The notes below the pieces were generated by a model. The model was not told where the DNA came from. It was given only the letters and a program-made list of their open reading frames with translations, and searched no databases. This document shows, in pieces, positions 10,975-59,718 of a DNA stretch of 60,902 nucleotides (positions within the stretch are counted from its first letter, which is position 1; each line of letters begins with the position of its first letter). Origin of the DNA: Seison nebaliae (taxonomy: Eukaryota > Rotifera > Pararotatoria > Seisonacea > Seisonidae). The stretch is taken from positions 1-60,902 of the forward strand of contig JALJEE010001842.1 in assembly GCA_023231475.1 (NCBI GenBank), written 5' to 3'. The translations under genes and the position numbers were made by a program.

Positions 10975-13900
10975 ATGACGTCAGATGTTCAAACGAATTT
11001 GCAATTACAATATCTGCAACCGATAAAAGAAGATCTTATCGAATGGTTGGGAAATTTGTATCAAATTGAAATTTCACCGAAACATTTCTGTGATTCGTTC
11101 AGAAATGGAGTGTTGTTGTGCGAACATGCGAATAACATGATAATGGCTGGGAAGACGGCTTGTCAGCTCGAGATTATTGATCAAGAAGAATTGAAGAAAA
11201 TACCAACCAAACAACTTTATTATTATAAGATTGCTAAAGTTAATTCACCAGCCGCTGTACATAATCTCAAACAATTTTTCGAATTTATCAAACAACTCGA
11301 CATCAAATCCGGTTTAGATTTCCTTCAAACTGATAATTATAAATCATGCTTGGAAGAGAAGAATATTATTATGTGTCTTTTGGAATTAGCAAGAATTGGT
11401 GCTCGTTTTGGCGTACAAGTTCCCACTATTATCAAATTGGAAGAAGAAATTGAAAATGAATTGAGTAATGAGGTTGAAGAGAGAAATAAAGACATTCCTC
11501 CAAAAAATGATGACAATGCATTTTATTCATCAAATGAACAAAAACTTCTTCATTCAAATAATAAGAATTATAATTCTGATGATAATTCAAATGATAATAA
11601 TAATGATAATAATAATGATGATGATGATGATGATGATGTAACTTGTATTACAGGAATAACAACACCAACTTATGTGACAAATAATAAATATAATAATTTG
11701 ACACAACCACCAACTGGTAATCCATCGAGGAATGAACAACGAGTGAAATTGAGACATTCAAATAAATCGAACAATGAATTCTCATCGAGGAATAGTGTAA
11801 TGAGTTATGCATCTTCTGCATTTACATCTGTTACAAATGCTGATAAGATTAGTCGAAGGAATTCTAATATGATTTCCGACGATTGTTCCAACTACTCTCG
11901 TCAGAGTTCCAATCGATTGAAAGAAAAGTTTAACTATCAGTTATTTGAGCCGATCGATTACGATATCAAAAGTGAACCGTCCACATTGTCATCTTCATCT
12001 TCCTCTTGTTCATCAACGGAGACTTCTTCGTTCGTTTCATCACATCAAAATTCAACGAACGACGAAGGAAATGGTGAAGGAAATTCGAGAAGTAGTTCAA
12101 TCGATCCAACTCGAAGAAAAACGATGACTTATGAAATTAGCGGAAAACGATTGAGTTCTGGTTCATCTCTTAGCACGACACAGCGAACAGTATCAAAACG
12201 ATCAACGAAACGAAAGAGATTGGTGAAAGATGTGACGGAATTAGAAATGATTAGTCAGAACAATGATGTAATGGATAATAATGGAATTGATCAGAAATCG
12301 GCATATTATCAATTTATTACTGAAGATTCTGTAAATAATTCTTATCTTCACAATAAAGTTCCATCTTTTTCTCTTCCATTCTAACTGTTCTTTCTCTCTC
12401 TCTCTCTCTTACAGGTAATTAAACAACTGTCAGATTGTAAATGTAGTGAACCATTCATTCTTAAACGGATTAGCGAAGGACAATACAGTTTGAATGAACA
12501 AAAACGAATTTTCCATTTGCGTGTTAATATCATTTTCTGGTCATTAGATTTAAGGGTTGAATTTCATTTCAAAAAATGATTTTCCGATATTTCTCACTAA
12601 TTATAAATCGTTATCGATCATCAATTAATGTAATAATCGATGTGAATAATTATTTTATTAAACGGTTGTAAATGTAGATTTTAATCGTAGTAGTTTGTTA
12701 GGGGAATGAATAAGAATATTTAGAATTTGATGATTATGAATACTTCGATGAATATTTTACTTCCCTTCCAGACGTCAGTATTGTCAATAGTATAGAATTT
12801 GATCTTAATATTTCGAAGGAACGGTAGAAGTGAATAGTGAGAAGATAATAACATTTCTTTTATTGGGAAGTGTCAAATTCGGTCCGTGATTGTGTAGCCG
12901 ATGACGTATCGGCGAACATAAAAAATGACTCTGATTATTAAGAAGTGAATATTGAATGTCTGGAATCGGATGGAATTGTTATGGGTATGAGAAAGGAAAT
13001 TATTTGAGAAGTTCCAATAGGCGAATTGTTCGATTTCCATTATTGAGTACTTGCTATTCAACAGGAGTATGTTTTGTAACGTACGAACGTTAGATGAATT
13101 ATTATGGAGGGAAGAGAAAGAGAGAAAGAAGAAAATCGAAAAGTTATTTTAAACGAATTTTTATCTGTCAAAGAAGATTATTCTTTTGTCGTTCTTTTAC
13201 CATTCTTACCTTTTATTGGGAATATTCAAAAATACTTAACCAACAATAACAATAAAATGATGAAGATGATGATGATGATGTAGTATGAGAGAAATTGTTT
13301 AGTGTTTATATTTCAATTGAACTGAATTGTATTTATTTCATTCATGATGTGGAATGAGAATAATTAATTCATGTTGAAAGATTTCCTTATATATTATTAT
13401 TATTATTATTATTATTTCCTACTGATTCGTTCTGTTGGGATGACCACGTGAATTTGAATAAGTTTAAATGTCAGATTAGATGATTGAAGAGATTATATAT
13501 CATGAGTTCGATAAGTTAAATGAGAAAATAGTCTGTGTAATCGACTTGACGATTTGTCGACATGTTTCCGATGGAATAATTCCTGACATCATCATGTCAA
13601 TGAAATAATGTAAACTATTTGTGAACAGTAACATTGTCAGTCGTCATAACGTCAATATATTTCAATGAATGAAAATGACCATTTGATGATTTGGTTTGAT
13701 TAGAATTAGAGAGAAAGGAGAAGTTGAATGATGGAATAGGATTCGATTAGAAAAAAGGTGTGACTGAAATGGTGGTGATGTGGATGAATTGTAAATAGAA
13801 TGAAATGATAAATAAAAGAATTTCATTTCTGATTTTTCTCTTTTGTTTATAAATAGATCCTGAGACAACATGTCATGATTCGTGATGGCGTTCTCTGGGA

Positions 13901-16130
13901 TACACTAGAACATTACCTCCAAACAAACGATCCATGTCGAGAGAAGTTCGTTGAATTGATACGAATGAATCAGAAAGAAGAGAAGAAACCGACAAGAACA
14001 AATATGATGAATGGAGATGAAGATATTAGAATGACAATCGATGATAATAATAAGAAGAATAAGAATATTGAAATGATTATTGACATTGATTCTAATCGAA
14101 TGGAAAAGAATGGATTGAAAAATATTGAACATTTGAATAAGGATTGGAATGATTCAATATCAAAAAGAAGTGAAGCGGCATCTCGATCAGCATCCGTTCA
14201 GAAATGGTTGAATGAAAATCATCAAATGCCAATAGAACATGAAACTCTTCAAATATCGACGACGAAGAAGAAACAGAGACATCTCTCACAATCACATATC
14301 AAACAAAAAGAAGGAAAATTGAATAAATTTCAAGAACAACAAGATCCTGATGACGCATTAGATGATTTTGATGAGAATTGTGATGGAATTGGAGAAGAAT
14401 CGACAAATAAACAAAACAATGTCAAAATTATGGAGAATCATGATATTGTCGATGTGTTGAGTTGTGATAATGTGAAGATCGATATTGATGATGAGCAGAA
14501 TCACAACGGGATATTGAAGAAGAAATCATTCGATACTCGACATCGATTAGAAGAGGAAGTGAATAAATTGTGCGTTGAGGAAGAAATTGATGAAGCGTAT
14601 GGAACCGCTCACAGATCACGAGACAAACGACGAATTATAAAAGGTAATGAAGCACTATTACATCATCAAGAACAACAACAACAACATATATTCCATGAAT
14701 CAAAATTAAAGAATAATGAATCGATTCGATTTAATGGAACTAGAGAAAAGTTAGTGGAAGAGAAAAAAGAAGAAGAAGAAGAAGAAGAAGAAGAAGAAGA
14801 AGAAGAAGAAGAAGAAGAAGAAGAAGAAGAAGAAGAAGAAGAAGAAGAAGAGAAACTGAGAAGAATTAATGACAAATTAACAGGCGAAATAAATGGTAAA
14901 GGAGTTGGTGAGAAGAAAATGAAGAAATTGTCGAAGCCTAATAATGATTATGATAATCGATCATTAGTTGACGAGAATTTATTCGAACATCTCCGTACCA
15001 CAAGTTGTTTCCCTTCGTCACCCAAAGTGGATACGATTAGTATGAGAGATTTCCAGATGAAAGGTAAACAGCGTTCGAAATTTACTTCTCCCTTCGAAAT
15101 TCATCGGAATGAAAGTTTGAGTACATTATGTGGACGATCGAGAAGTAATACGCCATTCCTCCAACAAAATCTTGGAACGACAATTAATCGAATGAATCGT
15201 TTAAATGAAATCAATTCATCAAATAAAACTGCCAATCGTAGTTTGTTAAGATCTAAACCGATTTCCGTTCAACGGACAATGAACAAGCAATATCCTTCAT
15301 CCAATATTGATCAATCGAAATGTGTAGATGGAAAGAATAATTTATTTATAAAGAAGAAGAATTATCCATTCTTCTCCGCCAAACGACAAACGAATTTCCA
15401 TTCACCAATAAATCAACCATTGACGACTCATATTGAAAAGAAGAAAAAATTTAATCAATCTCCAATTAATAATGACCAGTTTCTCTCACCACACACTTAT
15501 CTCAATTACAACATCAACAACAACACCAATGGTCAATCGAAGAGAAGTATCTCATGTTTTAACGAAATTGAATTAAATCAAGAGAAATCGGATGACAATC
15601 TCAAATCATTAGAGAGTACGAATTCGGGACAACTTCAATCTCCAAAATTACAAGATCTCCTCTATAGTAGTTCATCATTCACTCCATCGAGGATTAGTCT
15701 CAGTTCTCATCTTCGTCAACTAAAAATTGGGAAGAGTGACTCCGATAGTGGACATATCAGTGATTCAACCAGTCTTTGTAGTAGTGGTGGTGCTGGTGGT
15801 GGTGCTGCTGGTGTTACCGGTCTATTACCTACAAATGGATCAAGTATCTTAAATAATAACGAACGATATTCTCGTCGTCTTCAACGTCATTTTAATCAAT
15901 CGACATTAGAAGAAGAAGAAGAAGAAGAGGAGGAAGATGATGATGATGATGAAATAGGAGATGATGGAGGTTTGAGTGAAGAATGTATCAGATATTATAC
16001 ATCACCATCAATTATTGATGAATCGATGAGTAACATACCAAATCGAACTTTAAAGAATGTTAAACAAAACTATCTATCAAATGTAGCACATCAGAAGAAT
16101 CGGAATTATGATGTAAAGAAATCATTGATT

Positions 16131-16173
<43 letters not shown>

Positions 16174-16718
16174 TAATTAATTCAAATGTCCATCCCATTA
16201 GAAATGATCCTCATGGAATTTTACCATCAAAACATCGAGGACATTCTGTCACTCCTTCAACATATAATTATCATCATTCACATTCATCATCATCATCATC
16301 GATCGGTCATCAGAATAAACCGTTTCAATTGGCAGCACAATTATCTTCAATTCTCCAACAACAACAAGAGAAGATGAATGAATTTATGAAACAAGAGAAT
16401 TTGAAATATAATCGTCGAACATCATCAGGAATTGATACACAATCTGTTCTCTCCTCACCATTCTCTCATAAATATCGTTTACCTCAAGATTCTTATAGTC
16501 ATCTCTCATCAACTCCCACTACATCCATCTCGGCGTCAACTATGATGACTCCTTCACTCGTCATGAAGAAGACAAGTCGAATGACTCCTTCCAAATCATC
16601 ATATTACTCTCAAACTAAACGAAGAGATTCTTCTATGTCTTCCTCCATCGTTAATGGCCGTTCATCGTCTGTGCCAAGTTTCCTGAAGAATCCTATGAAA
16701 TTATCCACAAACAATTAA
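10975..16718 (+). CDS. GAS2-like actin-microtubule linker (Pigs/GAS2L family)
   Basis: Three exons: 10975-12330, 12415-12522 and 13857-16718, giving about 1441 residues. A calponin-homology domain (about residues 15-147) ends in CLLELARIGARFGV, the GAS2-family signature. A GAR (GAS2-related) domain (about 453-516) is split by the second intron: CKC-x-EPF in exon 2 and RQHVMIRDGVLWDTLEHY in exon 3. CH domains of this family bind F-actin and GAR domains bind microtubules. The long tail is disordered, with poly-Asp, about 28 Glu, poly-Asn and poly-Ser runs. It contains SNIP (residues 1213-1216), a fit to the SxIP motif that recruits EB1 to microtubule plus ends, as in vertebrate GAS2L proteins. 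An in-frame stop lies just upstream of the ATG. The single open frame ends at 12384, but only splicing restores the GAR domain. Convergent with CAPS. Confidence 0.92.
13391..13416. repeat. (ATT)n microsatellite in GAS2-like intron 2
   Basis: ATT trinucleotide run inside the 1334-bp second intron, which is by far the longest intron rebuilt in this window. Confidence 0.8.
14768..14850. repeat. (GAA)n tract coding about 28 glutamates
   Basis: Almost pure GAA repeat inside exon 3 of the GAS2-like gene, in frame as poly-Glu. Codon purity suggests recent expansion and likely length variation between individuals. Confidence 0.9.
16134..16172. repeat. (AAT)n tract coding poly-Asn
   Basis: AAT repeat in frame as about 13 asparagines in the disordered tail of the GAS2-like protein. 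Confidence 0.85.
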
Positions 16719-17460: not shown

Positions 17461-20400
17461 TTATTCTAATGAAATGTTCAATGTTGTATCTTCCACTTTT
17501 AATCGATTTGAAACGATCTGGTATTCTTTAGAATTCAAATTCTCTTCTGCCACTCCTTGCAATTCGAAACTAGAATGAATTTTCTGGTTTTCAAAATGAT
17601 AAGTTAATTTTTTTTGTTGACGTAAGAAGAATTATTGAATTAAATTAAACTTTTACCATGAGTGAAATGCACGTCAACTGATATGCATGTAATTGATGAT
17701 CTTTCCTTTCATCTAACCATTCATATACCGTCATGATTTGGGCGCGATACCAATCCTGTCATCAAATAAAATTTATATATTATTTTATTATAAATTTATT
17801 TGTAACCTGAAATAGAATGAGAACGAATAATTCATCCATTATCTTTTGACGTAATTGTTCGAGATTGGAATAAATAAATGTCACATACGATTGTCCCAAT
17901 TCGTTTACAGGTTTCTATTAATATATCCGAATTTATCAAATATAAGAATGAATAATAAAACGGTTAAAGAGAGAATTGGAGCAAATAATGATCCTTCATC
18001 ATAACGAGAAAACTTCTTCAAAGCTGATGATAACACACAAGTGAGTTTCATGAGAATTTGAGATTGGAAGTCTTTCAATGTCGTTTCTAAATAATCATCA
18101 ATTTTCGTATGATATCGATGCATCTCACCGTTCTCCATTGAACATAATTTTACTGCCTAAAAAAAATAAATTAGGAAGTATCGAATTATTCGTTTAACTC
18201 TACTCTTACAATCATTTATCACATTTACCATGACGCAACATTCGCTGGGAAGAAGATAATCACAACCAGCTGCTCCTAATAAACTTCCTTTCTTCATCCA
18301 TTGTTCAAAATATTTGGCAACTCTAAATTGTTCAAATTCATTGATTAATCCTTCAAATTTTAAAGAAAAAATAACCGAGCACAACAAGCTTCGATCATAT
18401 CGGCTGTCATTTGTTTCAAACGATTTTGAAGATGTTCATTGAACATTGCATCAGGCCAATGAAGATTTCGGATGAATGATTGGAGTGCTTCCAATTTCCA
18501 TAGAACCATATCAGAAGCTGCACAAGAATTACTAGAATTTCATAATGAATGAAAGTTAATAATGATTAATAAGAGGGGAGAAATGAGAACTCTTTCGGTT
18601 TCCAAGTTTCCTTCTCAAAATCATTGTTGATTGATTGGGCAATTGATGATTCCATCAAATCCACATATCTGATCAAGAGTGGCATATAAAGATCTTGTAG
18701 TTGCTGATGGAAGATTCCACCGTTCAATGTTTCATTTCCAATGAGGTAGTCATTCAGCATTTGGAATAATGGAAATGATTCCCATGAATCAGGTGATTGA
18801 CTTTCAATCGCTTGTTCTAAATCGACAAGAAACAACGACCAAAATACTTCTTCATGTTCCCGCATCAAATTCGGATATGTTTCAAATGCCTTTCAATTCA
18901 TTTCCATTATTTAAGAAAGATAAAGAATAATAAGAGGAAAACATGAAGATAAAATTCTTGATTCTGATTCAACACATCGATACATAACTCTGCCATAAAT
19001 AATACCGTTTCCAAATATTTCTTAGAACTATTCCCCGAATTATCTACATTCTGCTGTCTCTGATTCATCAACTGTTGTTGCTGTTGTTGTTGCATATCTG
19101 AAATTTAATCAATAAGTTCCAAGATGATATTCAATTCAAATTATAATTTTCATTAAAATGGTAATTAATCACACCAGGAAAGAATTGTGGTTAAGAAAAA
19201 TCAAATGAAGATTAGTCGAAATGAAAAACACCAAAATTCAAAAAGAACTTACACAAAATTCTTCACATTTTATTTCTTCGCCACAACAACAATATCATCT
19301 ACATGGAACTGATGCATAAAATAAAGAGCAATAACAAGAACAAAAATTAGAAAGAAGGAAATTAATGGAAATTCATCAATATTACCGTTGTTATAATTAT
19401 TCATTTCATTCGGATACATCGAATTAGCATTAATAAATCCGTTGCCTAATTTTCCGTTTTTTCAATCCAATTAAAAAATTTAACGATATCATTTATGATC
19501 ATTTAACAATTAAAATTCCATTAAAAGTTTAAAGAAAATTAATTATTAAAGAATATTATAGGAAGTTTTTATAACGATAAATTTTTCTTAAATCTCAAAA
19601 AAACCACCAGCTCAAAAATAAAATGATTACTCGCAAGAGTTTCATATGATTTGAATTGAAACAACATGAAAAATGTTTAAATAAAATCTCATCTAACCTT
19701 CCACTTTGACACTTTCTGATATTTTCTGATAATTGACTAATGCTGCATTCTTTAGACATCTTGTCAATACTTGATTCAAATCTTCTACCTGTTGATGTTG
19801 TTGTCGTTGTTGTTGACCAAGTACGGTCAATGTTGCGTCAGTGGTTAATATCTATTGATGATGATAATTTGATTAGTGAAATGTAGAAAGAAAACTTTTC
19901 CTAATAAGAGAATGGAATTCCTTAATCCGTTTTCTGGTCGACCAAACGGAAAACTGTAACGAAAATGAGTAATTTGATATTCGAGTAGAGTTCTCAATCG
20001 ATCACGTATTTGATAGAAATCGTCGAGTTCCTGTTGGAGAATTGAATGTAAACGTTTCGATGGTATTTCATTCGATTGTAATTGATTATTCACATTCGAT
20101 TGATCATTCATATTTGGATTGATATTATTATTATTCGAATTCATATTCTGATTATTATTCATGATATTATTATTATTATTATTATTTAAGATATTCTGAT
20201 TATTCATATCGTTATTAGATAACATCATGGATTGTTGAGATGGTTGAGTTGAATTGGTCGTATCAGAGACATGATTGGCACAAATAACGAAAGAGTCATA
20301 GAAACAATTTGGATCGACAGCAATACCTTCTTCAGCTTTCGACAACAAATTCTTTATATGACTCAAATGACGGATACATAATCGTACACTATACCTAGCA

Positions 20401-24858: not shown

Positions 24859-25842
24859 ATGACGACGGTGGCCGCTAGCGCTCCCGACATAGCTCAATTC
24901 GAAACATATTCATTGAACGATGATCAGGTGAGTTTGAAATTAGTTTGAAATATATGAAAATTTTCATGGAAACGGTTTATAAGGATGATAGAACGGAATT
25001 GATAGCGGGACAAGATTTTGATACGATTGACGAACCGATAAAAGCGACAATCGTTTCCATTAGAATTATTCGATAAGAATTATTTCAATTTCAGATGCGA
25101 GATATACGAGCAATTGGACAGAAGATAACTCATGTCATCTTTCCTCGATCGAACAGTACATTATTACGAGATTGTTTATTCTCTTCCTCTTTCTCTTGTC
25201 TTTCATCTTTTCTTCTTTTAAATTTAGGGGATTTGTGGGGTCCATTATTCATTTGTATCATTTTATCATTGTTAAAATTTAAAAATTTTAAATAATGAGA
25301 ATTAAATGTTTATTTCAATAGATTACTGAAAGGATATTCTGATAGTCATGTGGATGGAAATGGAAATCGATTAAAAACGATTGGAACAGCTCCAGAATTC
25401 GCTCAAATATTTCTCTTGATTATTATCGGTTCATTTACTGTCACATTAAACACATCATTATTAGGCGGATCGATGTTATTTGAATTATTTATAATTATTT
25501 GATAAATTATTTCTTTTTCAGATCTTTCTTCCAATCTGTTTGTGCTCTCGGTTATTGTCTCATTCCATTGACGATAACATCATTAGTCGTCGTTCTTTTA
25601 AATTTATTGAAAAGTTCAACTTTTCTCTTCTTCTTTAAAATCGTTATTATTGTCATCTCACTCGTTTGGTCCATTTACGGTTACTTATTAATTTTTATTT
25701 CTTTTCATCATTTCCATTCGTATTTTTAGCCAGTACAATCTTCCTCTCCAATTCCATCAAAAAAGAACGACGATTACTCATCGTTTATCCCATTTGGCTC
25801 TTCTACTTCATTATCAGTTGGCTCGTTTTATCCAAATCATAA
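24859..25842 (+). CDS. YIPF6: YIPF6, Yip1-family Golgi membrane protein
   Basis: Seven small exons: 24859-24927, 24984-25052, 25095-25173, 25228-25270, 25322-25474, 25522-25679 and 25730-25842. They encode 227 residues; human YIPF6 is about 236. The cytosolic N-terminus carries the family block ATIMRDIRAIGQKITHVIFP, followed by LLRDWDLWGPL, whose Trp is created exactly at a splice junction. Five hydrophobic segments follow, with LGYCLIPLT and VYPIWLFYFIISWLV matching Yip1-domain transmembrane helices. Yip1 proteins act in Rab-linked ER-Golgi traffic and Golgi structure. All introns are 42-56 bp; only the first has a canonical GTGAGT donor. Confidence 0.94.
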
Positions 25843-26006
25843 ATTATGTGAAAACATCTGAAAAGAGAGAATTTGATAATTAAAAAGGTTTTAATGATGG
25901 ATTATATCATTCTTCTTTCGAAATAATTTCATCTCGTCACATATTATTAGACGTTCATTTCTTCATTTATAATTTATATGAAATAAAACAATATTTCTGA
26001 TATATG

Positions 26007-26950: not shown

Positions 26951-28114
26951 ATGTCACTATCTAGAGTATTGGGATTAAGTTCTGTTTTTGCCGCCGGTGC
27001 TGCCGGTATAATGCTGGCGAAGAATAATGAGAAGAATCTGTTGAATCGAGGAGAGACAGATATGGGAGAAATGAAGGCACAGAATGTTCGTCTGTTGAAC
27101 AAACGTCGTGTTTCACCCGATTCTTATATCTTCCAATTTGATACATCTCCAAAATCATCAATTGGTTTTCGCACTGGTGATTGTCTCGTCGTTCATGCAC
27201 CAAATGATGTGAAAGATAATAAAGGCAAACGATTATCTCGTCCATATACTCCAATCAATCAATTGAATGATGAATCAGGACATGTTGATTTATTAATTAA
27301 AGTTTATAGTCCAACAAAAACTGATGAATATGGTGGTCAAATGTCTCAATATTTAGAGAAGTTAAATATCGGTTAACATCAAATTTATTCATTTAAATAA
27401 TTCTCATTTAAATAATTTTCAGGTGATAAAGTTTCAGTGAGTGGTCCATATGGTTCTCTGACTTATGAGAAAGAAGGTAAATTTCTTAAACGAAATAAAA
27501 ATAGGGAAGAAAAAATGAATATAAAGGAAGATAATCTTGCCAATTATGATACCATTCAAACGGAAAATGTTGTGATGATTTGTGGTGGCAGTGGCATTAC
27601 ACCAATGTTACAGATGATTAAGCAAATTTTAAAAGACGAAAAGAAACCACCAAAAATTCATTTGGCTTATTCCAACAAGAAAGAGAATGACATTTTAGTT
27701 CGAAGTGAATTGGAATGTCTTTCGATGAAGTTTCCCGAGAAATTTTTCTGCGATTTCTTCTTGACAAGAGAACAAATTAAGAATGGAAAGAGTAAGGCAC
27801 CGTTATGTGGAGGGTGTGTGAAAGATGGTTCGGCAACAAAAATGATAAGTGAATGTGAAAATCGATGTACTTATAATGAGCCATCAATTATGTGTAGTCA
27901 ATGGAATAAAATCTCATCTATGTTCAAACAGTCGAATCAATTGGAGAATGTTCAATTAATGAACGGACGAATTGGGAAGAAAGATGTCCAACGTCTTGTC
28001 AAGAAGTCTAAAGAAACGATTTATTTGATTTGTGGACCTAAATCATTTACGAACGATATGAAAGATGAATTGAAGAATTTGAATGTGAAGGAATCGAATA
28101 TTCATTGTTATTGA
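26951..28114 (+). CDS. NADH-cytochrome b5 reductase
   Basis: Two exons (26951-27371, 27423-28114) encode 370 residues, versus about 300 for typical CYB5R. A hydrophobic segment near residues 7-24 would anchor the enzyme to a membrane. The flavin motif RPYTP (near residue 97), the NADH-binding GGSGITPM (about 194-201) and CGPKSF (about 344), and the C-terminal Cys-aromatic ending are all present, so the catalytic core looks intact. The enzyme transfers electrons from NADH through FAD to cytochrome b5, supporting fatty-acid desaturation and sterol synthesis. The extra length is mostly two insertions: a charged stretch before GGSGITPM, and a Cys-rich stretch of about 45 residues inside the NADH domain before NGRIGKKD. 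Confidence 0.93.
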
Positions 28115-29546: not shown

Positions 29547-32500
29547 ATGAATGAAGATAAAATGAGAATAATGATAATGGTTTTATTGATATTGGTGGTT
29601 CATTGTCAAAAGGAGATCACCATCCAATCTGATTTAGCATTTTTCGATAAAGTCAAACGTTCCTCCACCAACGATCACACGTTAGATAACTGGATTCGAT
29701 ATAAACATCCGTCGAAAAAGAAGAAATTACATATTGGTGGAATATTCCCAATGTCCGGTTAGTTATCGATTGATTTGTTCTTAATAAATATTTAATGATA
29801 TTGGTAGGTGGATGGGCTGGTGGAAGAAGTTGTTATCCCGCTGCTCGAATGGCACTTGCCGATGTCAATAGACAACCAGATATATTACCCGGATATTATC
29901 TCCATATGACAATGTATGATAGCGAATGTGTACCAGGTATTGGAGCGAGGAAATTTTACGATTTATTATACAATGAAGAGAGAATGGTGATGCTTCTCGG
30001 TCCTGGTTGTAGTCATGTTGTGACGATGGTAGCTGAAGCTGCACGTATGTGGAATTTAATTGTTCTATCTTATGGATCGTCATCTCCTGCTCTTACTAAT
30101 CGAAACAGATTCAAGACATTCTTTCGTACACATCCTTCAGCTGCTTTGAATAATCCGACACGAATCAAATTATTTCAAACATTCGAATGGACACAAATCG
30201 CCACTTTACATGAGACACAAGAAGTTTTCAGTACAGTTTGACTAACAAATATTTTATTCTTTCTTCAACATTCATTCATTCATTCATTCATTCATTCACT
30301 TATAGACAATCGAAGATTTAGAACGATTAACAAAGGAAGCGAATATTACAATTAAAGTGAGACAATCATTCCTCAATGATCCAACTGATGCAATTCGGAA
30401 TTTAAAGAAACAGAATGCGAGAATTATTGTCGGTGTTTTCTACGAAGATAAAGCACGACGCGTCTTCTGCAGAGTTAGACATTCATTTCAATACATTTCC
30501 ATCAATTCTTTCAAAGATTTTCAAAGAGAAAATGTATGGAAGGAAATATGTATGGTTCATTATCGGTTGGTATCCAGATGACTGGTATTTGAAGGAAGTG
30601 AAGGACGACGAATATTTTACTTGTACAAAAGAAGAAATGAGAATTGCCGTTGAAGGACATTTTACAACGGAAACATTGATGCATAATATGGAAAAAAATC
30701 GTATAACTGACACAGGTGATCGAATGGTTCTTTCTTTTTTTTCTTATCATTCTACTAATCTTTTATTTATCTCATATTATTTAGTCATATAATAAATTTC
30801 GTGTTCGACTTATATCCGAATTGGAACATGATTATAAAATCAATTTGACAACTGATCCAAATGCTCCTATGAAAATTGCTGGATTTCCTGAAGCGCCATT
30901 AGCCTACGATGCGGTTTGGGCAATGGCTTTCGCACTCAATCAAACATTAGCTCGGTTCCATAATTATTATTGGAGATTCCAATAACATTAATAAATTTCT
31001 CTTATGGTCTGATATAGTTTGAAGGAAGAAGGAAACACAAAATTGGAAAATTTCAATTATAAAAGTGGACGACATGTGATGAATATATCGTACTTCTATT
31101 TCAATAAAACGGATTTCGAAGGTGTGTCTGGTCGAGTGAGATTTACTGAATCGGGAGATCGTATTGCTCAGACACAAATCGAACAAATGCAGAATGGACG
31201 ATATGTCATTCTGGGAACACACGAATCAAAAGAAGATATTTATTGGGTATCGGGCAGTGTCGTACAATGGGTAGGTTCGTCTTATCATTTTGAAAGTTTT
31301 TAGAATTTTCATTTGAAATTCATTTGAAACATCAATTTCTCTTTCCACAAAATTATTTTCGAGATAATATTCTTTTCAAATTGAAAATTTTCATTTCAAT
31401 TCAGATGGAAGAAAACCGAATGATCGAACATTAATTGAACCAAAATTAATGAAATTACATTTGGGACAATTAATCGTTATGAACATTCTCGCTTCAATTG
31501 GTATTGTGGCTGGAATTACTTGTCTATTTGTCAATACGATTCATAAGGATAAACGGTTTCTTTCTCATCATTTCTTCAACTCTCGTCTAAACAACTTTCT
31601 CTCGTATTTTAGAGTGATAAAAAATTCCTTGCCAACTATCAATAATATGGTGACTTGTGGATTCTTAGCATCCTTATTATGTATCCCATTATTCTCTTTA
31701 GATACAAATGTTATTTCAGAGAAGACTTATGGTTTCCTTTGTTTATTGAAAGCATTGTTGTTGTCCATCGGATTTCTTTTGGCTTATGGTGCACTTTTCA
31801 CAAAAATCTTAATTGTACGAAATTATTCAGTGCAACAAAAGAGGAAAGAGAATCAAAATCGACAACCAATTCAACATAATTATTTATTAAAAAATAAATC
31901 GATCCTTCGAGTCTCTTCTTCCATTAAACGACAAGGAAGTGAATGGTCTCGTCGTTTACATAATAATCAATTAATCAAACGATTTATCAAAGATGAAAAT
32001 AATGATTCCGATGTTTTAACTGAATCTTCTGGAACGGCCGCTACCACTTCTGCAGGTAAACGAAGAATAAATCATTCATGGACAGACAATACTGATTTAT
32101 CAAAGAAGAATGATTCAACTTCCAGATTCTCATTCAATCCTTTAAGTTCTACGTCTAGTTCAAAAACGAAAAAACCTCATCATCACCACCATCATCATCA
32201 CCATCATCATCATCATAATGGATTTACCGACGATTTTCAAATAACTCGATTACAATTATATGGACCTGTCATTACATTTATTTTGATTGATATCATTTTT
32301 TTCGCCATATGGATCTGGACTGATCCACTCATTCGTAATATCACCAAATTAAAATTGGAACATCCTTTGAAGGATGTGGATGAATCATCACCTTTGGCAT
32401 ATGCTGACGTCATGTACGAATTACGAATGGAAGCATGTCGATCAATGAAATATCATACCGTTTGGATCGGTATCAGTTATGGATTTAAAGGAATGTTACT

Positions 32501-33172
32501 TTTATTGGGAACGTTTCTCGCATATGAAATCAGAAATGTGAAATGTCCTCTAGTGAATGATATTCGATTGGTGGCAATGTCTGTATACAATGTGGTTGTT
32601 CTATGTATTGTCACATCGACTGTCACACAAATTATTCAATCGACACAAGATGGAGTATTTGCTTTCGTTTCATTAACCATCATTGCATGTTCATTGTTAT
32701 CATTAGGATTAATCTTCGTTCCGAAAGTTCTTTTTAAATTTTTTTTTTAATTTTTTAATTTTATTAATTATTTTAGATCACCAATATTTATAAGTCGAAG
32801 GACTTGGTTGGTTTGGATGCATCGAAAACATTCGAAAGTTCGACAGATATCACTTTTGAAGAAGGTGAAAAATATCGGAAGTTACTCGTTGAAAATGAAA
32901 AATTGAGAACTGATATTATCGAAGTTTCATCTTTTAATATCATTCCATTTTATTTCCCTCGATTTAAGGCGGAAGAGAAATTAAAGGAGTTGACGGTTGA
33001 AATAGAAAATAGAATTCAACATGTTCAGGACCAAAATCAAGAGGAGAAATTGAGAAGACGAAAAGTGAGATTGATGAGAGAATCGAATATCAACTCAAAA
33101 GAAATTCCAACAATCAAAAATTTGGATGTGAATATGCCGCTCGTAAAAATCACGAATACTGATGAAGAATAG
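29547..33172 (+). CDS. GABBR1: GABA-B receptor subunit 1 (class C GPCR)
   Basis: Ten exons: 29547-29757, 29808-30235, 30306-30473, 30517-30726, 30785-30954, 31018-31274, 31405-31555, 31613-32726, 32777-32923 and 32969-33172, giving about 1019 residues. A signal peptide is followed by the Venus-flytrap domain, with [32 protein letters not shown] and [14 protein letters not shown]. These match GB1, and the retained Ser-rich ligand loop argues for subunit 1 rather than 2. Seven hydrophobic helices start near residue 502, and a coiled-coil tail follows ([19 protein letters not shown]), used in GB1/GB2 pairing. There is no sushi domain. Intracellular loop 2 is expanded by about 125 residues, including 13 His. 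The protein mediates slow inhibitory GABA signalling through Gi/o. The last exon may instead splice to sequence up to 33,479. Confidence 0.93.
30268..30298. repeat. (ATTC)n tetranucleotide repeat in GABBR1 intron 2
   Basis: Seven or so ATTC units make up most of the 70-bp intron, immediately before its TATAG acceptor. Confidence 0.85.
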
Positions 33173-33218
33173 GAAAAAGTCGAGTAAATTCTTTCCACAA
33201 ATAAATTTTCAATACCAG

Positions 33219-35175: not shown

Positions 35176-36375
35176 ATGAAGATCATCATTGTTTCTCTCA
35201 CTCTCATTTCGATGAGTTATGCTTATTCTCATTCGAGAATGATGAATAATGTTCCAATAATGAATTCGAAATGCATAAATGTTCAACCAGTACGATTATT
35301 GGAGGGATATGATGGAAATCAGACACCGTTCATAAACGATTTTCAGAAGAAATCGAACATTTGTGCAGGAAAACAAATCAATGAAAGATTTGCTCATCCG
35401 ACAAATGAAGGAATGTATATCGAATGTGGATTTGATGGAGAGAAATTCGAACGAATTTGTCCTCCTAAAACAAAATATGTCGTCGAATATGGACAATGTA
35501 CTTTAGGCTTCCCATTAACTAAACCGTGAATCAATTGAATCAAGTTTGTATAAAAGATCCGATTGCTCGTTGTGAATGTAAAGAAGGATATAATGGACAA
35601 TATTGTGAAATGAAGATCGATTATTGTAGAAAGAATCCATGTAAGAATGGTGGTATTTGTACTTCATATAGTACAGGATATACTTGTTTATGTCCAAATA
35701 ATTTTTATGATGATGATTGTTTGAATGTTCAAATAGATAATCCTTGTCGTGTTAATGAGATGGCTAATGGAATTCATATTTATTCCCATCCAAATGATAA
35801 TACAAAATTAATTTAATGTTTCGCTTATGAAGCCGCTTCCGTTTTATCTTGTCCACCTGGATTGACATTCGATAAAGAAATTCGAACTTGTCTCTCTAAC
35901 CAATATCAACAAGCGATTACTAATGTTTTGGAACAACAGAAATGTTATTATTTTATCTTTTATCTCAACTCCCAATTTCTTCTCATTTACAGATCAAGCA
36001 ACATTTCCAAAATCATGGAAACCATCTAGTGATCCATTACGTATGCCATCAATTGTCAGCGGATCTGCTAAGCTCATTCCTTTCGATCATAACCAGAAAC
36101 AATTTTAAGAACAATCACAACAAATCTTCATTCAACCATCAATGCCAATCAAACAAATACAACCATCAATACCACCTCAACAATCATGGTCATTGAAGAA
36201 AATGATGAACTTCCAAAATCCCATCATTCTCCAACAACCATATCAACAGAAACAACAACTTCCTACCATCCAACAATCATCATGGTCATCATCTTATCAA
36301 TCACCAAAATTTCTCGAACAGAAATCGCAACTTTTGAATAATACTCCCGTCAAATTGAATAATGGAGGATATTGA
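35176..36375 (+). CDS. Secreted CBM14/EGF protein with an in-frame stop
   Basis: Exons 35176-35497, 35545-35943 and 35993-36040, plus probably 36110-36375, would encode 344 residues. The ATG at 35176 starts a signal peptide (IIIVSLTLISMSYA). Next come a peritrophin-A-like Cys pattern (ICAGKQINERFAHP to YGQ), a partial EGF-like unit, and a full EGF domain (CRKNPCKNGGICTSYSTGYT). A second CBM14 domain follows (CRVNEMANGIHIYSHP and CFAYEAASVLSCPPGLTF), then a Pro/Gln-rich tail. CBM14 domains bind chitin in cuticle or peritrophic matrix. TAA at 35814-35816 interrupts the second CBM14 domain exactly where families usually have Gln before Cys; coding character continues unbroken after it. A second TAA (36106-36108) disappears if 36041-36109 is an intron (GTATGC donor). 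The locus may be a young pseudogene, a null allele or a base error. Confidence 0.7.
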
Positions 36376-37369: not shown

Positions 37370-38421
37370 TCATGCATTTCCTGAATTTTGCGAATAACGA
37401 TTTTTTGGTGTATTGAAATTGTTCTTATGTTGAATTTGATGGTATTTTTTTTTTGTTTTCGATGGAACATCAACACCCAAATTAGGAAAATCGGAATCGC
37501 CCAAACTCCCCACATCGAATTCACTTGGAACTTTTGTTTGACGGTTGTATGGTTTCTGATTTTTTTGTCCATTTCTCTTCAAGTAGTTATCTTTGTAACT
37601 TTTAAATTCTTTTTTAGAATTGAATATGAATCTGGAAGAAAAAGTGAAACTTAAGAAATCAGACGGATCGCTGTAGTTTGTCGTTTTCTTCTTTTTTGGA
37701 ACATTTGCCATTTCGCTTAAAGACAACCATTCGGCTCGTCCAGTTGCCATGAATTCAGTCAATGTCATTCGTTCAGTCAATGTTTCTCCTTTCTGTTCTA
37801 ATGTTCCATCTTCTAATTGACCAGTCTTCTTTTCTGTTTCATTTTCCTCTTTATCATGTTGGAGAGCATGCTCCAAATCATTCAATCCATCAATCTGACT
37901 CTTTTGGGGATCACCAAAATTATATGGTCCATCACCGCCACGTTTATTTGGAGGTTTGATGGTGGTATGTGAACCTGAATGACGATCAGTTTTCGCAGAT
38001 CGTTTATTTGAAACTATAATGAGGAATGATGAAAATTAATGAATAAAATAAAATGAGGGAACTCTTCTGATCATTAATTGGAAATGGTTTTTGAGAATGT
38101 TGCTGATTCTTCTTATCTTTTTTCTTGTCTACTATAGAAATGAGTATATATTAATATTTATATCTATATATACATCAATTAAAGAAATTTAAAGAAACCT
38201 TCATTAATATCTTTTAGTGCATTCAATTTCTTTAATAAATCGAATCGATTCGTCGTCGAACAACTATACTCACCATTTTCCGTATCCGAATCATCGCTAT
38301 CATTCAATTCGACACAAACATAATCGATCTTGTCACACTCGTCGGTGACTGGTACGAAGTGCTTCTTCTTGTACATCTTCCCCGGAACTAATACTGATAC
38401 TGATGTGTTTTCACTTGTCAT
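37370..38421 (-). CDS. SERBP1/HABP4 (vig) family ribosome- and mRNA-binding protein
   Basis: Three exons (38421-38199, 38131-38063, 38013-37370) encode 311 residues. The N-terminal STTNRFDLL matches the conserved TNRFD block of SERBP1/HABP4. The core has RSAKTDRHSGS, then KRGGDGPYNFG, which corresponds to the family RSDRHSG...GGSGSHNWG region. Further on MTLTEFMA corresponds to the MTLDEW block, and DSDFPNLG to the C-terminal FPALG. Family members (Drosophila vig, human SERBP1, yeast Stm1) bind mRNA and inactive ribosomes, where they help keep 80S particles dormant. The Arg-Gly-Gly boxes common near the C-terminus are absent; the tail is Lys/Asn-rich instead. Confidence 0.86.
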
Positions 38422-46423: not shown

Positions 46424-46455
<32 letters not shown>

Positions 46456-48122
46456 GCTGTTGTTGTTGTTGCTTGATTATAGCAACTAATAATGATGAAT
46501 ATATACCTTGCATTAATGATGTATTATTATTGATATTGTTGTTATTGTTATTAATATTATTGTTGTCGTAATTATTAACGTTGTTATTGTTCTTATTAAT
46601 ATATCTATCGGATGATCTCAGATTCTCCAAAAGTTTTTTAACAGCAATATTATCTGATTCGAACATTTGTCTCTTCTCTTCGTCATGAGTTGCTTCATAT
46701 AATTTAGTTGTCGACGACTTATCCTCATATAGACAAGAGTCATCTTTTTTCATATTTTTTAGGACTGATATCATCAAATTTTCATGAATCAATTTCGATT
46801 GTGATGGTATTGTTTGAGTGGATGGTATTTGTGCTGAAGGGTCAATTGGTGCAGGTTTAGAGAAAATTGATGGAAATGGTTTGGTTGTAACTTCTTTAGT
46901 TGTTCGACATAATTTCTTACTAATCACATCTTCAGGTGCCAATTGTCGTTTACGACTCGGTTTCTCAATAGAATCCACTCTCTCTTTACATTCATATGAG
47001 TCGTCTAATATCTGATTGAATTCCTTCGTTTTATTCGAATCATTTAATTCCCCAGTATTTATAGCTGACGGTTGACTGAAAGATGAAGTTGACGAATTTT
47101 CGGATGATATTGATTTATTCACATCTATTAAAGATTTGGATGTGTCCAATGTTGACATTTCACCAATTTGTCGTCCCCTTTTTTGTTTCCGCCATTTAGC
47201 TCGACGGTTCTTAAACCATACCTTTTTGTTTTCAAATGAATTTTAAAATATAAAGATATATTGTTATAAGGAAATAAATTTTTGTAACTTCTACTCTTTC
47301 TTCTTTCAAATTAATTTTTAATGCTAATTCATCACGTAACATAACGTCGGGATAATGAGTTTGGGCGAATGTGCTCTCCAATTTCTCTAATTGATCTTCA
47401 CTAAATATTGTTCGATGTCTTCGCTTCCTTCGCAATGGTTGACCATTATTTGTGAATCTTTGTTCATCGATATGATTCTCATCTTGTCGTCCTGTCTGTT
47501 GATATTGTTGTTGTTGTTGTTGTTGAATATTCTGATCGACAATTTTAGTTCTTTGTGCTAAATGTGCATCAATTGGAAGACATTGAAATTTATTTTTATT
47601 AAAATCAATTGATGAATTTCCTGTCGGTTTAACATGATCAGAGATCGTCTCAGTTAATTGAGAATCGAAAGAAGATAATAATTTCGATGAGGTTGAAGAG
47701 AATGGTGATATTGTATAAAATGATTCATTATTCATTGAATTTCCTTCTTTTTTCATATTCGAATAATAATTTAGAGATCTTTGTTGATCATTGAATGATA
47801 ATGGAATTTGTATCGGTTGTTGTTCCGCTTGTTGTTGTGAATTCCAAATAATTTGTTGTAAATTCTTCTCCGCCGTATCGTTAAATGATTCATCAACTAT
47901 TCCAATTTTAGATATCGGCTTCTGTTGTAGTTGTTGTTGAGAATAAGAGTTTCGAGTTTGATGGTCCAAACGTTGGAAAAGATTCATAAAGAAATTCATA
48001 TAATTCGCATTCGAACCGTTGTGAACAGAATTGACGATATTCGTTGACCGAATTGTTCGATTTTCGGGATATCTCGACAAAACTGAATTATCATTCTTTC
48101 CAATCAATTTCTCACTCATCAT
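46160..48122 (-). CDS. Gsc: Goosecoid homeodomain transcription factor
   Basis: Two exons (48122-47289, 47221-46160) encode 631 residues from the ATG at 48122. The homeodomain begins [20 protein letters not shown] and ends [15 protein letters not shown]. It matches goosecoid closely, including Lys at homeodomain position 50 (bicoid-class DNA preference) and the family intron before VWFKNRR. Goosecoid proteins repress transcription in foregut, head and neural patterning. Outside the homeodomain the protein is disordered, with 16 Gln, poly-Asn and an acidic stretch. I could not find the eh1/GEH repressor motif normally near the N-terminus. Open frame continues a little upstream to an AG acceptor-like site at about 48,149, so a 5' exon carrying it may exist above 48,150. 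The 6 kb upstream is gene-free, as is common for developmental regulators. Confidence 0.93.
46423..46470. repeat. (CAA)n tract coding poly-Gln in goosecoid
   Basis: Sixteen or so consecutive Gln codons on the minus strand, almost all CAA with one CAG. Confidence 0.88.
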
Positions 48123-50764: not shown

Positions 50765-50783
50765 ACCGTAGTCAGACTACGGT
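50765..50783. repeat. Perfect inverted repeat, 9-bp arms
   Basis: ACCGTAGTC, one base, then GACTACGGT. This is a near-palindrome in GC-richer sequence and may be a dimeric protein-binding site. Only the symmetry is observed. Confidence 0.6.
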
Positions 50784-53714: not shown

Positions 53715-53774
53715 GATCTCCTTCTTTACGATCAGTGGTAGGAGATCTCTATGTTGCGTGAGACGTGCGTCTCA
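53715..53774. ncRNA. Pair of adjacent hairpins in a GC-richer island
   Basis: GATCTCCT (53715-53722) pairs with AGGAGATC (53740-53747), and TGAGAC (53759-53764) pairs with GTCTCA (53769-53774) around a GTGC loop. The surrounding 200 bp has higher GC than the flanks and no long open frame. It could be a structured RNA or an old transposon end. No known family recognised. Confidence 0.2.
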
Positions 53775-54332
53775 TCGTTGTGGCGTTTGGAACGTGTATA
53801 GATCACTGCGCTAAGTACGACCCAATATAACTTTCGATATTCATAATACGTTGTTTCGGGATTATGCGTGGAACATGTGTAGACTCATTCAAATGCAACC
53901 AATATTCGACAACTGCACTACACACGACCATAATGAGAAAATTTTATTGACTAAGGAATGTAGTGTGGAAAGCAAAGGAAGATAAATAAAGTTCATTTCT
54001 TTAAAATGTTAATAATTGTAGGTTTACAGTTCACCAATTGGTTGATTATATATACAAATTATATGGATGTATTGATGATGGATAAATTGTGTCGCAAATG
54101 AGAAAAGTACTAACAATGAATAAGATGATTCAAAAAAAAAGGTAAAAAATAGATTCGTTCCAATGAATGTAGAAAGAGAGAGAGAGACAGAGAGATTATT
54201 AAAGGATGAAATGGTTGGAAGCAGATAAATTGCTATTATTTGTAATCTTTTGGAATAATTGTATATTTTTATGAAACTAATTTTACACAATTTTAATGAA
54301 ATATAAAGAGGTGAAAAGAAATTTTTTTTTCT

Positions 54333-56138: not shown

Positions 56139-57028
56139 CACTCACTAGATCGTTTTTATTCCCGAAAGGAAATTCATTAGGCAATTTATCTTTCTCTATT
56201 CTCCTCCATTCATAAAGAAAAAGAAATGAGAAATTAATTGTTATTTGAGATGATGTCATAAAATATTAATATGTTTCTTCTTTAATAAGAAATCATTCAA
56301 GCGATATATCACCACAATCATCCACCTCTATTCCACTATTGATCCAGGAAGTGATCGCTTTCGATAAATAGAAAGAACAGATAACTATTATTAACGAAAA
56401 ATGATAATTGAAGAATAAATTGAAATTAAATTTTATAATTTAAGCTTAAACTTTAAATATCAAAAAATTTAAAGTAATAATTTCTCATGAATTTCCATCA
56501 CAATCTTTCTCCACTCTTCCATTTACCACCAATAAACGTATTTCCTCTATACACATTATTTTGTGTAGACGATATTCCTTTTTTTGGAAATCCAATTTTT
56601 TATTATACATCTTATGAATGAAAATTCTCAATCCATTTCTAAATTTTCCACTTTCGTCTATTTATATATACACATAATCGATTAACATATCAATCGTTCG
56701 TTGCCCACATGTACAAATTGATATGTGTTTGAATACAAACGAGTTTTAACTGAACTATAAAGAAGTTAATCTCGTCTCTCACCCCTCCCCACACCCTCCA
56801 TCGATATTGACCATCAATTAATAATGTATTTCAATTCCCCCCACACTAATTGATGGATGTACAAGTGTAAAAGAATTATCTTCTTCTCTCCATTCGCACT
56901 TAATAATCTAGTTCGATAGAAGAAATATGAAGAAGTGACGAGAGAGAAGAGGAAGCGGTTGTATGTCCTTCTCGTTCCTGTTGAGGAGAGTGAACAACAA
57001 ATTCTTTTAAACCGGAAGACGTCCAATA
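56139..57028. other. Intergenic region, 0.9 kb, FBXL5 upstream
   Basis: Holds the FBXL5 promoter and the 3' flank of the orphan gene at 57,029. A pyrimidine-rich stretch lies near 56,775-56,800. No gene seen. Confidence 0.5.
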
Positions 57029-57347
57029 TCAATAACAAAACATCTCATAATCAATCGGAATGAATCCAATTGCATCATGTCTCGAGAGGTGATGTTGTCG
57101 AAAGAATATTCCTGTCCATTCTCTGTCTTCTAATTTCTCATAAACAATCATTCTTCCCTTCTCATTTCTGGCTGTTGTTGCCACAGAGATGAATTTGATA
57201 TATAGAGAAAGAGTAATGATCATTCGGTAAACAGGATTTGAGATGACCTTCCTCCTCCAATTTTCTTTTTTTATCCGTTTCCAATCGAACAGCTTCTTGA
57301 TTCTCTTCCGTTGTCCAACTAGACGAATAAAAACAATTCTCTTTCAT
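57029..57347 (-). CDS. Two-exon orphan gene, about 85 residues
   Basis: Two overlapping short frames become one protein when a 61-bp intron (57232-57172, GTTTAC donor, CAACAG acceptor) is removed. Exon 1 is 57347-57233 and exon 2 is 57171-57029. The product starts at an ATG, has a hydrophilic helical half (EAVRLETDKKRKLEEEGHLK), and ends in a compact half with WTGIFFRQHH, DAIGFIPIDYEMF and a final Cys-Tyr. Its codon use and residue mix look protein-like, and intron size and donor type match neighbouring genes. A good acceptor lies just before the ATG, so there may be a 5' exon. I recognise no family. It sits between FBXL5 and IBA57, divergent from the latter. Confidence 0.45.
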
Positions 57348-57884
57348 CTCGTTTCTAAAAAGGAATAATTGAAATTCTCTTTCATCATTTATCTTTTTTC
57401 GTTCGTCTCAATTCTATTATATCACATTCACAATACTCGAAACTCAACAATAATTAATTGGGTCGATAAATAATAATAATAATAATCATCAAATAAATAA
57501 ATAAGAAAATAATTTTCTTTAATATTCTTTAAGAGAAATCGGTTAATGTTGTTGTTTTTTCCGAATATGAAAATTATTTTTCTCCTTTCGACATTTCCAA
57601 CTCTTTTGACTTTTTCTTCAAAAAGAAACAACATTTCTGTTTATTTCCTCTATTAATTTTTTTCTTTTTAACAACTAAATGACTAATTAATTCGAATTAA
57701 TATTGAACATAAAAAAACAAAATTAAAAAAATATTTTTTTTTTTTAAATTAAATTTCAAATTAGAAACTGTTTGCATCACGGTGAAAAAAATAAAGATTG
57801 GAAGAAGATTCATAGACACATTCGAATTATTAAAGAGAGAATCAATTTTGGAAGTGGAAAAATACGCATATAGAATGAGACAAT
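57348..57884. other. Divergent upstream region, orphan gene / IBA57
   Basis: 537 bp of very AT-rich DNA with long A and T runs near 57,650-57,750. It should contain the IBA57 promoter and perhaps a first exon of the orphan gene. A small (TAA)n run lies near 57,467-57,485. Confidence 0.5.
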
Positions 57885-59718
57885 ATGATGTCGTGTTTCA
57901 ATCAAATCAATCGTTTTTATATCAATACAATTTCATATTGTTTAAGACCGACATGTCTTTCATCAATCATTCATCTCAACGCATCAGTTAATGATCAATT
58001 GAATTATTCGACCAATTCGTCGACGTCAAATGTGTCATCGACGGATGTGACATCGAAAGACACCGGACAAAACTTAATAAGTTTATTGGAATTGAAGAAA
58101 CGTGAAGAGGAGACACTTCAGAAAAGAATGAATGGAATTCTTTCTCGTTCATCTAAAAAGAATGATGAGATCGTCTCTCCAACTACTTCTCCTACAATGG
58201 AATCGTTGAGAAATGATATTCAATCACGAAAAATCCGTTTCCATCATGAACCGCCCGAATATTATCCCGATAAGAAATCGGTGAATGATAATTGTTCGAA
58301 AGTTCAGACGGAAAAGAAAACTTTTTCACTTCATCGATTATCTGGGAATACTCGATCTCTCGTTTTGATTAAAGGAGATGAAGCTGCTACATTCCTTCAA
58401 GGTATTTTAACTAATGATATTCTTCATCTCAAAAAACGAGATTGTTGTTATTCATTTTTATTAAATGCTCGAGTTAATTTTTTTCTTATTTCTCTATCTA
58501 AAACTATTATTAACAATCTCTCATGTTTATAGGGACGAATATTATATGATGCTATTGTTTATCGATGTGGCGAGTATGATCATTTATTCCCATCATATAA
58601 AGGAAATCAATCATTTCTATTAGAAGTTGATCGAAAGGCAGTAAATGATGTGATGAAACTTCTTCAACTATATCGTTTAAGAAGACAAGTTCATTCATTC
58701 TTTTTTTATTCGATTTCTTGAAATTAATGAAATCTTTTTAATAAAAATATCTTTAATAGATCTCAATCGATGTAATATCACGTGATATTATTAGTATTTG
58801 GACAGCTGTTCCCATTATTAATTCGATGGAAGATCATTCTTTAGAATTGTTGAAATTTTTTTTTGAAACAAATTTCTCGATCATTAAATAATTTTAAATA
58901 AAATAGATATGGCGATTCAGCAGAAGAGATTGTCATTTCAATGAATCAAGATCCCAGACATTCGAGTATGGGATATCGATTATTGATTGATGAACAATCG
59001 ATGATTGTTAATTTACGTCAACCTTCACCCATTAATTGTTCGTTATATAAAATCTCTTTTTTTTTTATTTATAATTATTTTCTAGTAAATAATCATTTGA
59101 CTGATTGTCGTTCACAGGAATTAGACGCATTACATTATCGTCGATGGTTATATTCGATTGGTGTTTGTGAAGGATATGAAGATATTCCTCTCAACAAGGC
59201 TATTCCATTTGAGTATAATGGAGATTTGTTGAAAGCCATATCTTTTGATAAAGGATGTTATATTGGACAAGAATTAGTAAGTAAAACTTATCATACAGGT
59301 GTCATTCGAAAACGAATCGTTCCCATCAAATTAATAAAGTTTTTCTTTCAAAAATTTATTCTCCCAAACATTTTCTCTCAAAACATCAGTGTTCCATTAT
59401 GTGAATCACAACGCGATTCTATGATTTATATTGGAGACAATAACAAACCGATCGGAAGAATTCGAGGAAATGTTGGAGAATATGGTGTGGCTCTATTGAA
59501 GATGGAAGATGTAAAAACCATCATCCAAAAACAAAATGATTCGTCACCAAATTCTTCATTTCTCACTTGTCGAGGAGAACCTGATGGACATGAAGTTTCG
59601 ATCAAATCCATTTTAATCTTTTTCATTTTCTCTCTTTCACCAGATTAAAATTAGAATATCAATTCCACAATGGTGGCCAAAAGATTCGAATCATTTATCG
59701 AAAAAATTATTTTCTTAA
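57885..59718 (+). CDS. IBA57: IBA57, mitochondrial iron-sulfur assembly factor
   Basis: Six exons (57885-58472, 58533-58688, 58760-58848, 58907-59037, 59086-59594, 59644-59718) encode 515 residues, longer than human IBA57 (about 356) because of an extended N-terminus. The first ~20 residues lack acidic residues and could be a mitochondrial presequence. Folate-binding-protein-like blocks follow: LSGNTRSLVLIKGDEAATFL, FLLNAR-GRILYDAIVY, MGYRLL, the hallmark KGCYIGQE (about 377-384), HTGVIRKRIVPI, and the family ending IPQWWPKD. IBA57 works with ISCA1/ISCA2 in maturation of mitochondrial 4Fe-4S proteins. The terminal WWP is recovered only by splicing the last 49-bp intron. Two methionines open the frame; either could be used. 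Confidence 0.93.

Follow-up and report, generated by a model that had tools for sequence, protein, structure and literature searches.

GTT 5' splice sites in the rotifer Seison nebaliae and a matching base at position 6 of three of its U1 snRNA genes

The 5' arm of U1 small nuclear RNA (snRNA) is extremely conserved, and whether splice sites and U1 can shift jointly is an open question. In textbook pairing, position 6 of U1 faces donor position +3 and position 9 faces −1. Position 5 faces +4 (PMC10581693; this and the other papers named by PMC number are cited for the parts of them available to us). Here we address the 5' splice sites of Seison nebaliae, a tiny rotifer living on crustaceans, starting from a 60,902-nucleotide contig (GenBank JALJEE010001842.1; hereafter the window), in which a sequence-only reading had reported introns beginning with GTT in place of the usual GTA or GTG (GTR), together with the snRNA genes of the whole assembly. 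Our analysis confirmed that almost all S. nebaliae introns tested begin with GTT and not with GTA or GTG.

In Saccharomycotina, switches of donor preference at +4 are tied to METTL16 and SNRNP27K; the U1 sequence ACUUACC is invariant wherever U1 was found, the U6 box is unaltered, and the available part of the study states that compensation was sought and none found (PMC10581693). Seison shares with these yeasts a lineage-wide preference change at one intronic donor position, but its switch is at +3, its genome has a METTL16-family match (44.8 bits), and U1 itself is changed. In the larvacean Fritillaria borealis, most introns have lost GT/AG, the 5' ends of the two U1 versions are identical and unchanged, and the consulted part of that study states that the path followed there did not involve an altered U1 (PMC13326754). 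Seison likewise departs massively from the usual animal 5' splice site, but it retains GT-AG and its U1 is changed. The copepod Eurytemora affinis uses GA and GG donors, a change at +2 that affects about 12% of introns, and its only intact U1 has the usual 5' end in the text available (PMC5714493); unlike that animal, also one with unusual donors, Seison is changed at +3 and has an altered U1. The diplonemid S. specki carries one canonical U1 and one in which a run of C takes the place of the arm and which complements the canonical donor about as well as the normal form does (PMC12621601). Seison similarly has canonical and altered U1 5' ends in one genome, but in Seison a single base is altered, and it matches a donor change across the genome. 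A further comparison is with two described donor classes, one read by U5 loop 1 and the other by the U6 ACAGA box (PMC11732430); the A-rich exon end and unconstrained +4 to +6 of Seison resemble the exon-anchored class, whereas those classes are without a fixed +3 T or a changed U1. Compared with the canonical animal U1 and its GTRAGT donor (Rfam RF00003), Seison has U1 genes of the same RNA family above the gathering score, with the 5' arm, a U1-70K-type loop, an Sm-like site and GT-AG introns, and differs by A at position 6 (A6) in three of four genes and by GTT donors with little beyond.

To learn donors without prior knowledge of them, we used a gene hidden Markov model (HMM) whose exons follow the reading frame, whose introns come in three phases and whose donor columns are free, its coding statistics taken from 53 long open reading frames (261 kb). 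The genome searched comprised 36.0 Mb in 846 contigs, of which the window is contig C646; as a haploid size of about 46 Mb has been published (PMC8351084), the assembly may be incomplete. When GT and AG were left soft in training, T reached 0.85 at +3, beside G 0.73 and T 0.94 for the GT and A 0.77 and G 0.81 for the AG. With GT and AG fixed, flat, GTRAGT and GTTAGT starts all reached one optimum, at which +3 T was 0.94; most later models assumed GT..AG. The Viterbi parse of the 261 kb contained 118 introns (111 GTT, 4 GTA, 1 GTG, 1 GGT and 1 TTT), and 116 of the 118 start with GT, as the GT..AG ends of major-class introns do. The window accounted for 27 HMM introns, 25 with GTT and 2 with GTA.

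The preference persisted when the donor was hidden. With the decoder blind to +3 through +6 and coding flanks required, GTT was found in 62 of 71 introns at a posterior above 0.5 (261 kb) and in 68 of 73 at a posterior above 0.8 (301 kb); it was found in 62 of 73 when the acceptor context was also hidden (301 kb), while hiding +1 and +2 as well left zero introns decoded at a posterior of 0.8. T follows 41% of all GTs in a genome sample, against which 68 of 73 corresponds to P = 4e-21, and the same count gives P = 4e-10 even against 61% T, the richest of columns +7 to +12. In a letter-reversed control with the flank filter on, 3 introns were called by the full model and 5 with the donor hidden, versus 107 and 73 in the real sequence; without the filter the calls were 95 and 130 versus 126 and 85, so the coding-flank filter matters and unfiltered calls are untrustworthy. 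Swapping +3 T to A at 123 decoded introns and retraining yielded A at +3 in 98%, showing that T is not inherently preferred by the method.

Donors were also placed by protein homology, by scoring all donor/acceptor pairs around each junction in OSGEP, DRC4, Xaa-Pro aminopeptidase and pescadillo (the alignment is weak around aminopeptidase intron 3 and pescadillo intron 2). Together with the GABA-B receptor 1 gene of the window, these conserved genes gave 23 placed introns: 21 GTT, 1 GTA and 1 GTG. In the first four genes, 17 of 21 introns fell within the alignments (15 GTT, 1 GTG, 1 GTA); no GTR..AG pair fits in range at 13 of the 15 GTT introns, and at the other two such a pair scores 5 versus 52 and 16 versus 66. 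Six of the seven GABA-B receptor 1 introns tried could be anchored and all six are GTT, the top GTR..AG rival scoring 38 versus 70. The deposited protein SNEBB_009005 (YIPF6-like) maps exactly to the window, in a mapping that allowed GT, GC or AT donors, with introns at 24928 (GTG) and at 25053, 25174, 25271, 25475, 25551 and 25680 (six GTT). For contig C629, the OSGEP-like protein obtained after splicing is identical to SNEBB_006835 of S. nebaliae over all 357 residues.

These results corroborate the sequence-only reading, which had claimed GTT in 35 of 40 introns. Its 40 introns were taken as a whole, with separate intron counts made in place of a one-by-one re-derivation, and GTT was the majority in the HMM and homology counts as well; the share of exceptions was 5/40 in that reading and 3/107, 5/73 and 11/73 by our methods. 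The bases it gave are present at all ten coordinates it named: GTAAAT at 12331, GTAATA at 19385 (−), GTAAAA at 17656 (−), GTGAGT at 24928 and GTACTT at 35498, and a GTT start at 25174, 31556, 32727, 58849 and 59595. Five of the ten were checked as introns, 24928 and 25174 by the deposited protein, 31556 by homology, and 32727 and 35498 by the HMM, and the proposed restoration of LLRDW|DLWGP at 25174 is borne out by the reading frame and the exact protein map.

Little is fixed in the donor beyond +3. In the 107 introns, T is 0.97 at +3, A and T are each 0.40 at +4, +5 is nearly even with G at 0.21, and T is 0.44 at +6; at +3 and +5 this is not the GTRAGT-like donor of major-class introns. The scarcity of G at +5 (about 6 of 35) and the short introns (42-75 bp) reported earlier thus recur here, with G at +5 in 21% and a median length of 47 nt. 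G at +5 nevertheless exceeds the roughly 3-8% G of adjacent intron columns, and so still appears somewhat favored; it is weakly associated with G at −1 (P = 0.048), which occurs in 28 of 107 introns (expected 17.9). At the exon end, A was counted 50, 58 and 53 times at −3, −2 and −1 (expected 39.5, 40.3 and 38.5). A branch-point motif search in the 107 introns returned CTAAT 17 times versus 11.6 in shuffled sequence and TTGAT 17 times versus 9.0, and established no motif.

A genome search with the Rfam U1 model, in which 41 of 293 candidates were scored (U1 counts refer to the matches scored), gave four U1 genes: L001 (−) and L002 (+) on contig C208, L003 (−) on C647 and L004 (−) on C762. Their covariance-model scores range from 97.4 to 112.9 bits, over a cut-off of 69.5, and L001 is the best at 112.9 bits. 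The first eleven bases are the canonical arm, AUACUUACCUG, in L002, and AUACUAACCUG in both L001 and L003, where A for U at position 6 is the sole difference from the canonical arm; L004 (1501-1659, −), with AUACUAACUUG, has U for C at position 9 besides A6. The partner of this U9 would be A at −1, which is more frequent there than any other base (53/107), and U9 may represent a second co-evolved position. A start-pattern scan recovered the four U1 genes and two places (on C448 and C629) without an Rfam U1 match, and a scan for additional canonical U1 copies found L002 only.

Pairwise identity among the four genes is 67-74%. Standard pairs occupy 162 of the 182 cells of the Rfam structure (L001 43/46, L002 42/46, L003 40/45, L004 37/45), and 23 of the 46 pairs are altered on both sides in a compensatory manner. 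Given this identity and helices kept by two-sided changes, A6 has outlived much divergence. All three A6 genes keep AUUGCAC in stem-loop II and an Sm-like site. At the U1A site in stem-loop II, L002 (1501-1664, +), the only canonical-arm U1 found, reads AGAGCAC for AUUGCAC.

Just downstream of L001, L003, L004, L032 and L042, which are U1, U2 and U5 genes, lies AATTAAACT, which may be an snRNA 3' box. It matches 9/9 at +10 after the A6 genes, at +20 after one U2 gene and at +13 after the U5 gene, and 8/9 after L002 and the second U2; it does not follow the third U2 copy (L034, 1501-1702, +), which is degenerate (78.7 bits versus 139.1 and 135.4). An upstream promoter element common to the snRNA genes was also sought, and the similarity was weak.

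The snRNA matches over the cut-off in the genome were four for U1, three for U2, two for U4, and one each for U5 and U6. A compensating change in the U6 ACAGAG box, which the sequence-only reading had suggested looking for, was rejected, as the one U6 found reads ACAGAG. The U5 loop, CGCCUUUUACUAA, and the U2 GUAGUA are canonical. A U1-C zinc finger was matched at 75.8 bits, and presumably it is similar to the human one. For U11, of the minor spliceosome, the genome gave no match, in a search that gave none in control genomes either.

We then compared the U1 arms with the donors. Over nine positions, Watson-Crick pairs per donor averaged 4.01 for the canonical arm, 4.92 for A6 and 5.11 for A6 with U9 (73 donors), versus 3.64, 3.83 and 3.96 at 834 decoy GTs; the gain from A6 is about one pair per donor. 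The duplex energies were −2.12 (canonical), −2.66 (A6), −2.98 (A6 with U9) and −3.11 kcal/mol (an invented G6 arm), and the excess over decoys was 0.32, 0.74, 1.04 and 0.26, respectively.

The sequence-only reading had named three possible causes: an altered U1, reliance on U6/Prp8, or strong intron definition. The first is supported, as an altered U1 exists in the genome: of the four U1 genes found, three have A at position 6, facing +3, while the step from these genes to their use would be a further one. We consider it probable that these are major-class GT-AG introns whose donor shifted from GTRAGT to GTT and little else, and that they are selected by U1 small nuclear ribonucleoproteins (snRNPs) in which A6 pairs with U at +3. 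The A6 U1s would then be expressed, make up the majority of the U1 pool and pair with GTT donors, and the changes in U1 and in the introns would have reinforced one another. Intron definition may be an added factor, given the weak +4 to +6 and the short introns, in which it could offset that weakness. The signal (the donor) and its reader (U1) appear to have changed together. As judged from the genome sequence, the case for A6 lies in where the change sits, in which base it is and in its having persisted while the genes diverged.

Several points weigh against this account. In 12 of the 23 homology-placed introns (8 of 17 in the four-gene set and 4 of 6 in GABA-B receptor 1), a non-GT..AG junction a few bases off scores 1-17 points higher, and homology alone therefore fixes the donor only if GT..AG is given. 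The raw duplex energies fail to single out A6, since the invented G6 arm is lower; G6 has the smaller excess over decoys, and only this excess favors A6. Because pairing at +4 to +6 is weak, the pairing gain comes mostly from +3 itself. With 41 of 293 candidates scored, more U1 copies are possible, and one canonical U1 gene, L002, persists, so that canonical U1 has not been cleanly replaced. The AATTAAACT box was spotted by eye in these sequences before it was scored, and its shuffle values are accordingly not independent. Finally, the expression of the A6 U1s is presumed and the splice junctions are predicted, both from genomic DNA, and U1 genes and donors were compared within one species.

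A tentative alternative is that two U1 snRNPs share the work, A6 serving GTT introns and canonical L002 either serving the small number of GTR introns or performing other functions of U1, for example guarding transcripts from early 3' ends. L002 has a perfect 5' arm, 42/46 standard pairs, an Sm-like site and the 8/9 box match, and GTR introns are present, one of them a textbook CAG|GTGAGT; however, its AGAGCAC, against AUUGCAC in the other three genes, may weaken U1A binding, and the GTR introns are too few to reveal a class preference. It is conceivable, though less likely than not, that Seison has U1 snRNPs of differing specificity, in which a dominant A6 form, divided into C9 and U9 versions that favor G and A at −1, respectively, reads GTT, and a relict canonical form remains for a few GTR introns or non-splicing tasks.

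It is unlikely that the A6 U1s are incidental, with U5, U6, Prp8 and intron definition choosing GTT and U1 tolerating a mismatch at +3. Yeast and copepod donors did change while U1 stayed unaltered in the accounts available (PMC10581693, PMC5714493), the consulted part of a review puts donor choice largely at U6 and U5 (PMC11732430), and A-rich exon ends suit the U-rich U5 loop. Yet this explanation gives no account of three diverged U1 genes with the exact complement of +3, and the U6 and U5 motifs are unaltered. That the A6 genes are degenerate copies and L002 the true U1 is very improbable: variant U1 genes are known in human, from the part of the literature available to us, and two A6 genes have fewer standard pairs (37/45 and 40/45), but L001 tops the Rfam scores of the four, all three A6 genes keep AUUGCAC, the Sm-like site and the 9/9 box, and half of the pairs vary by two-sided changes. 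An artefact of AT-rich composition or misplaced junctions is hardly credible, for although T is common in the introns (reaching 61% among columns +7 to +12), it makes up 97% at +3 while A and T account for 40% each at +4, P is 4e-10 even against that 61%, and the homology-placed introns and the swap and reversal controls contradict it.

If Seison does have such U1 snRNPs of differing specificity, it would be the first animal, within the literature searched, to have had its 5' splice-site code rewritten through co-evolution of base pairs between U1 and introns; what the genome presents is a consensus switch beside a matching U1 base in three diverged genes. Among the matches listed in the open-access literature (which is without subscription papers and bioRxiv), there was no paper on Seison splice sites and no U1 position-6 change in step with introns, and the open-access literature, without subscription papers, gave no report of a donor consensus switch matched by U1. 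The parts of PMC8351084, PMC12256650 and PMC10125929 available to us do not touch on which letters stand at Seison splice sites. Because only U1 changed among the donor-contacting snRNA motifs read, the share of U1 in 5' splice-site choice is directly testable, and Seison provides a naturally occurring orthogonal U1-donor pair. The pattern is relevant to gene annotation in this key lineage as well, because the usual animal splice models would penalize GTT.

The introns located in the window are collected in Table 1.

Table 1. Introns of the window and the evidence that places them (gene names marked "a" are by our reading).
Feature	Positions	Strand	Evidence
GTT intron, CADPS-like gene (a)	17756..17806	−	HMM, also donor hidden
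GTT intron, CADPS-like gene (a)	17915..17961	−	HMM, also donor hidden
GTT intron, CADPS-like gene (a)	18157..18198	−	HMM with trained donor only; donor-hidden prefers 18203 GTA
GTT intron, CADPS-like gene (a)	18532..18590	−	HMM, also donor hidden
GTT intron, CADPS-like gene (a)	18890..18942	−	HMM, also donor hidden
GTT intron, CADPS-like gene region (a)	19852..19895	−	HMM, also donor hidden
Exceptional CAG|GTGAGT intron, YIPF6-like gene	24928..24983	+	Exact map of SNEBB_009005
GTT intron, YIPF6-like gene	25053..25094	+	HMM and deposited protein
GTT intron, YIPF6-like gene, joins LLRDW|DLWGP	25174..25227	+	Deposited protein and reading frame; HMM parse reads through
GTT intron, YIPF6-like gene	25271..25321	+	HMM and deposited protein
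GTT intron, YIPF6-like gene	25475..25521	+	HMM and deposited protein
GTT intron, YIPF6-like gene	25680..25729	+	HMM and deposited protein; acceptor 25729 (protein) vs 25733 (HMM)
GTT intron, cytochrome b5 reductase-like gene (a)	27372..27422	+	HMM, also donor hidden
GTT intron, GABA-B receptor 1	29758..29807	+	Homology junction test
GTT intron, GABA-B receptor 1	30236..30305	+	HMM and homology
GTT intron, GABA-B receptor 1	30474..30516	+	Homology; HMM with trained donor, donor-hidden prefers 30433 GTG
GTT intron, GABA-B receptor 1	30727..30784	+	HMM and homology
GTT intron, GABA-B receptor 1	30955..31017	+	HMM and homology
GTT intron, GABA-B receptor 1	31556..31612	+	Homology junction test
GTT intron, 3' part of GABA-B receptor 1	32727..32776	+	HMM, also donor hidden
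Exceptional GTA intron, chitin-binding/EGF-like gene (a)	35498..35556	+	HMM, also donor hidden
GTT intron	38014..38062	−	HMM, also donor hidden
GTT intron	38129..38198	−	HMM, also donor hidden
GTT intron, IBA57-like gene (a)	59038..59085	+	HMM, also donor hidden

The SNEBB_009005 intron at 25551-25614 breaks the YIPF6 homology by our reading and is likely a gene-model error. A homeodomain gene is interrupted at 47210-47288 (−), where the HMM junction loses residues and is probably a few codons off. In GABA-B receptor 1, transmembrane parts are separated by a long insert of low complexity that contains a poly-histidine run (31613-32726), and the homolog alignment breaks there.

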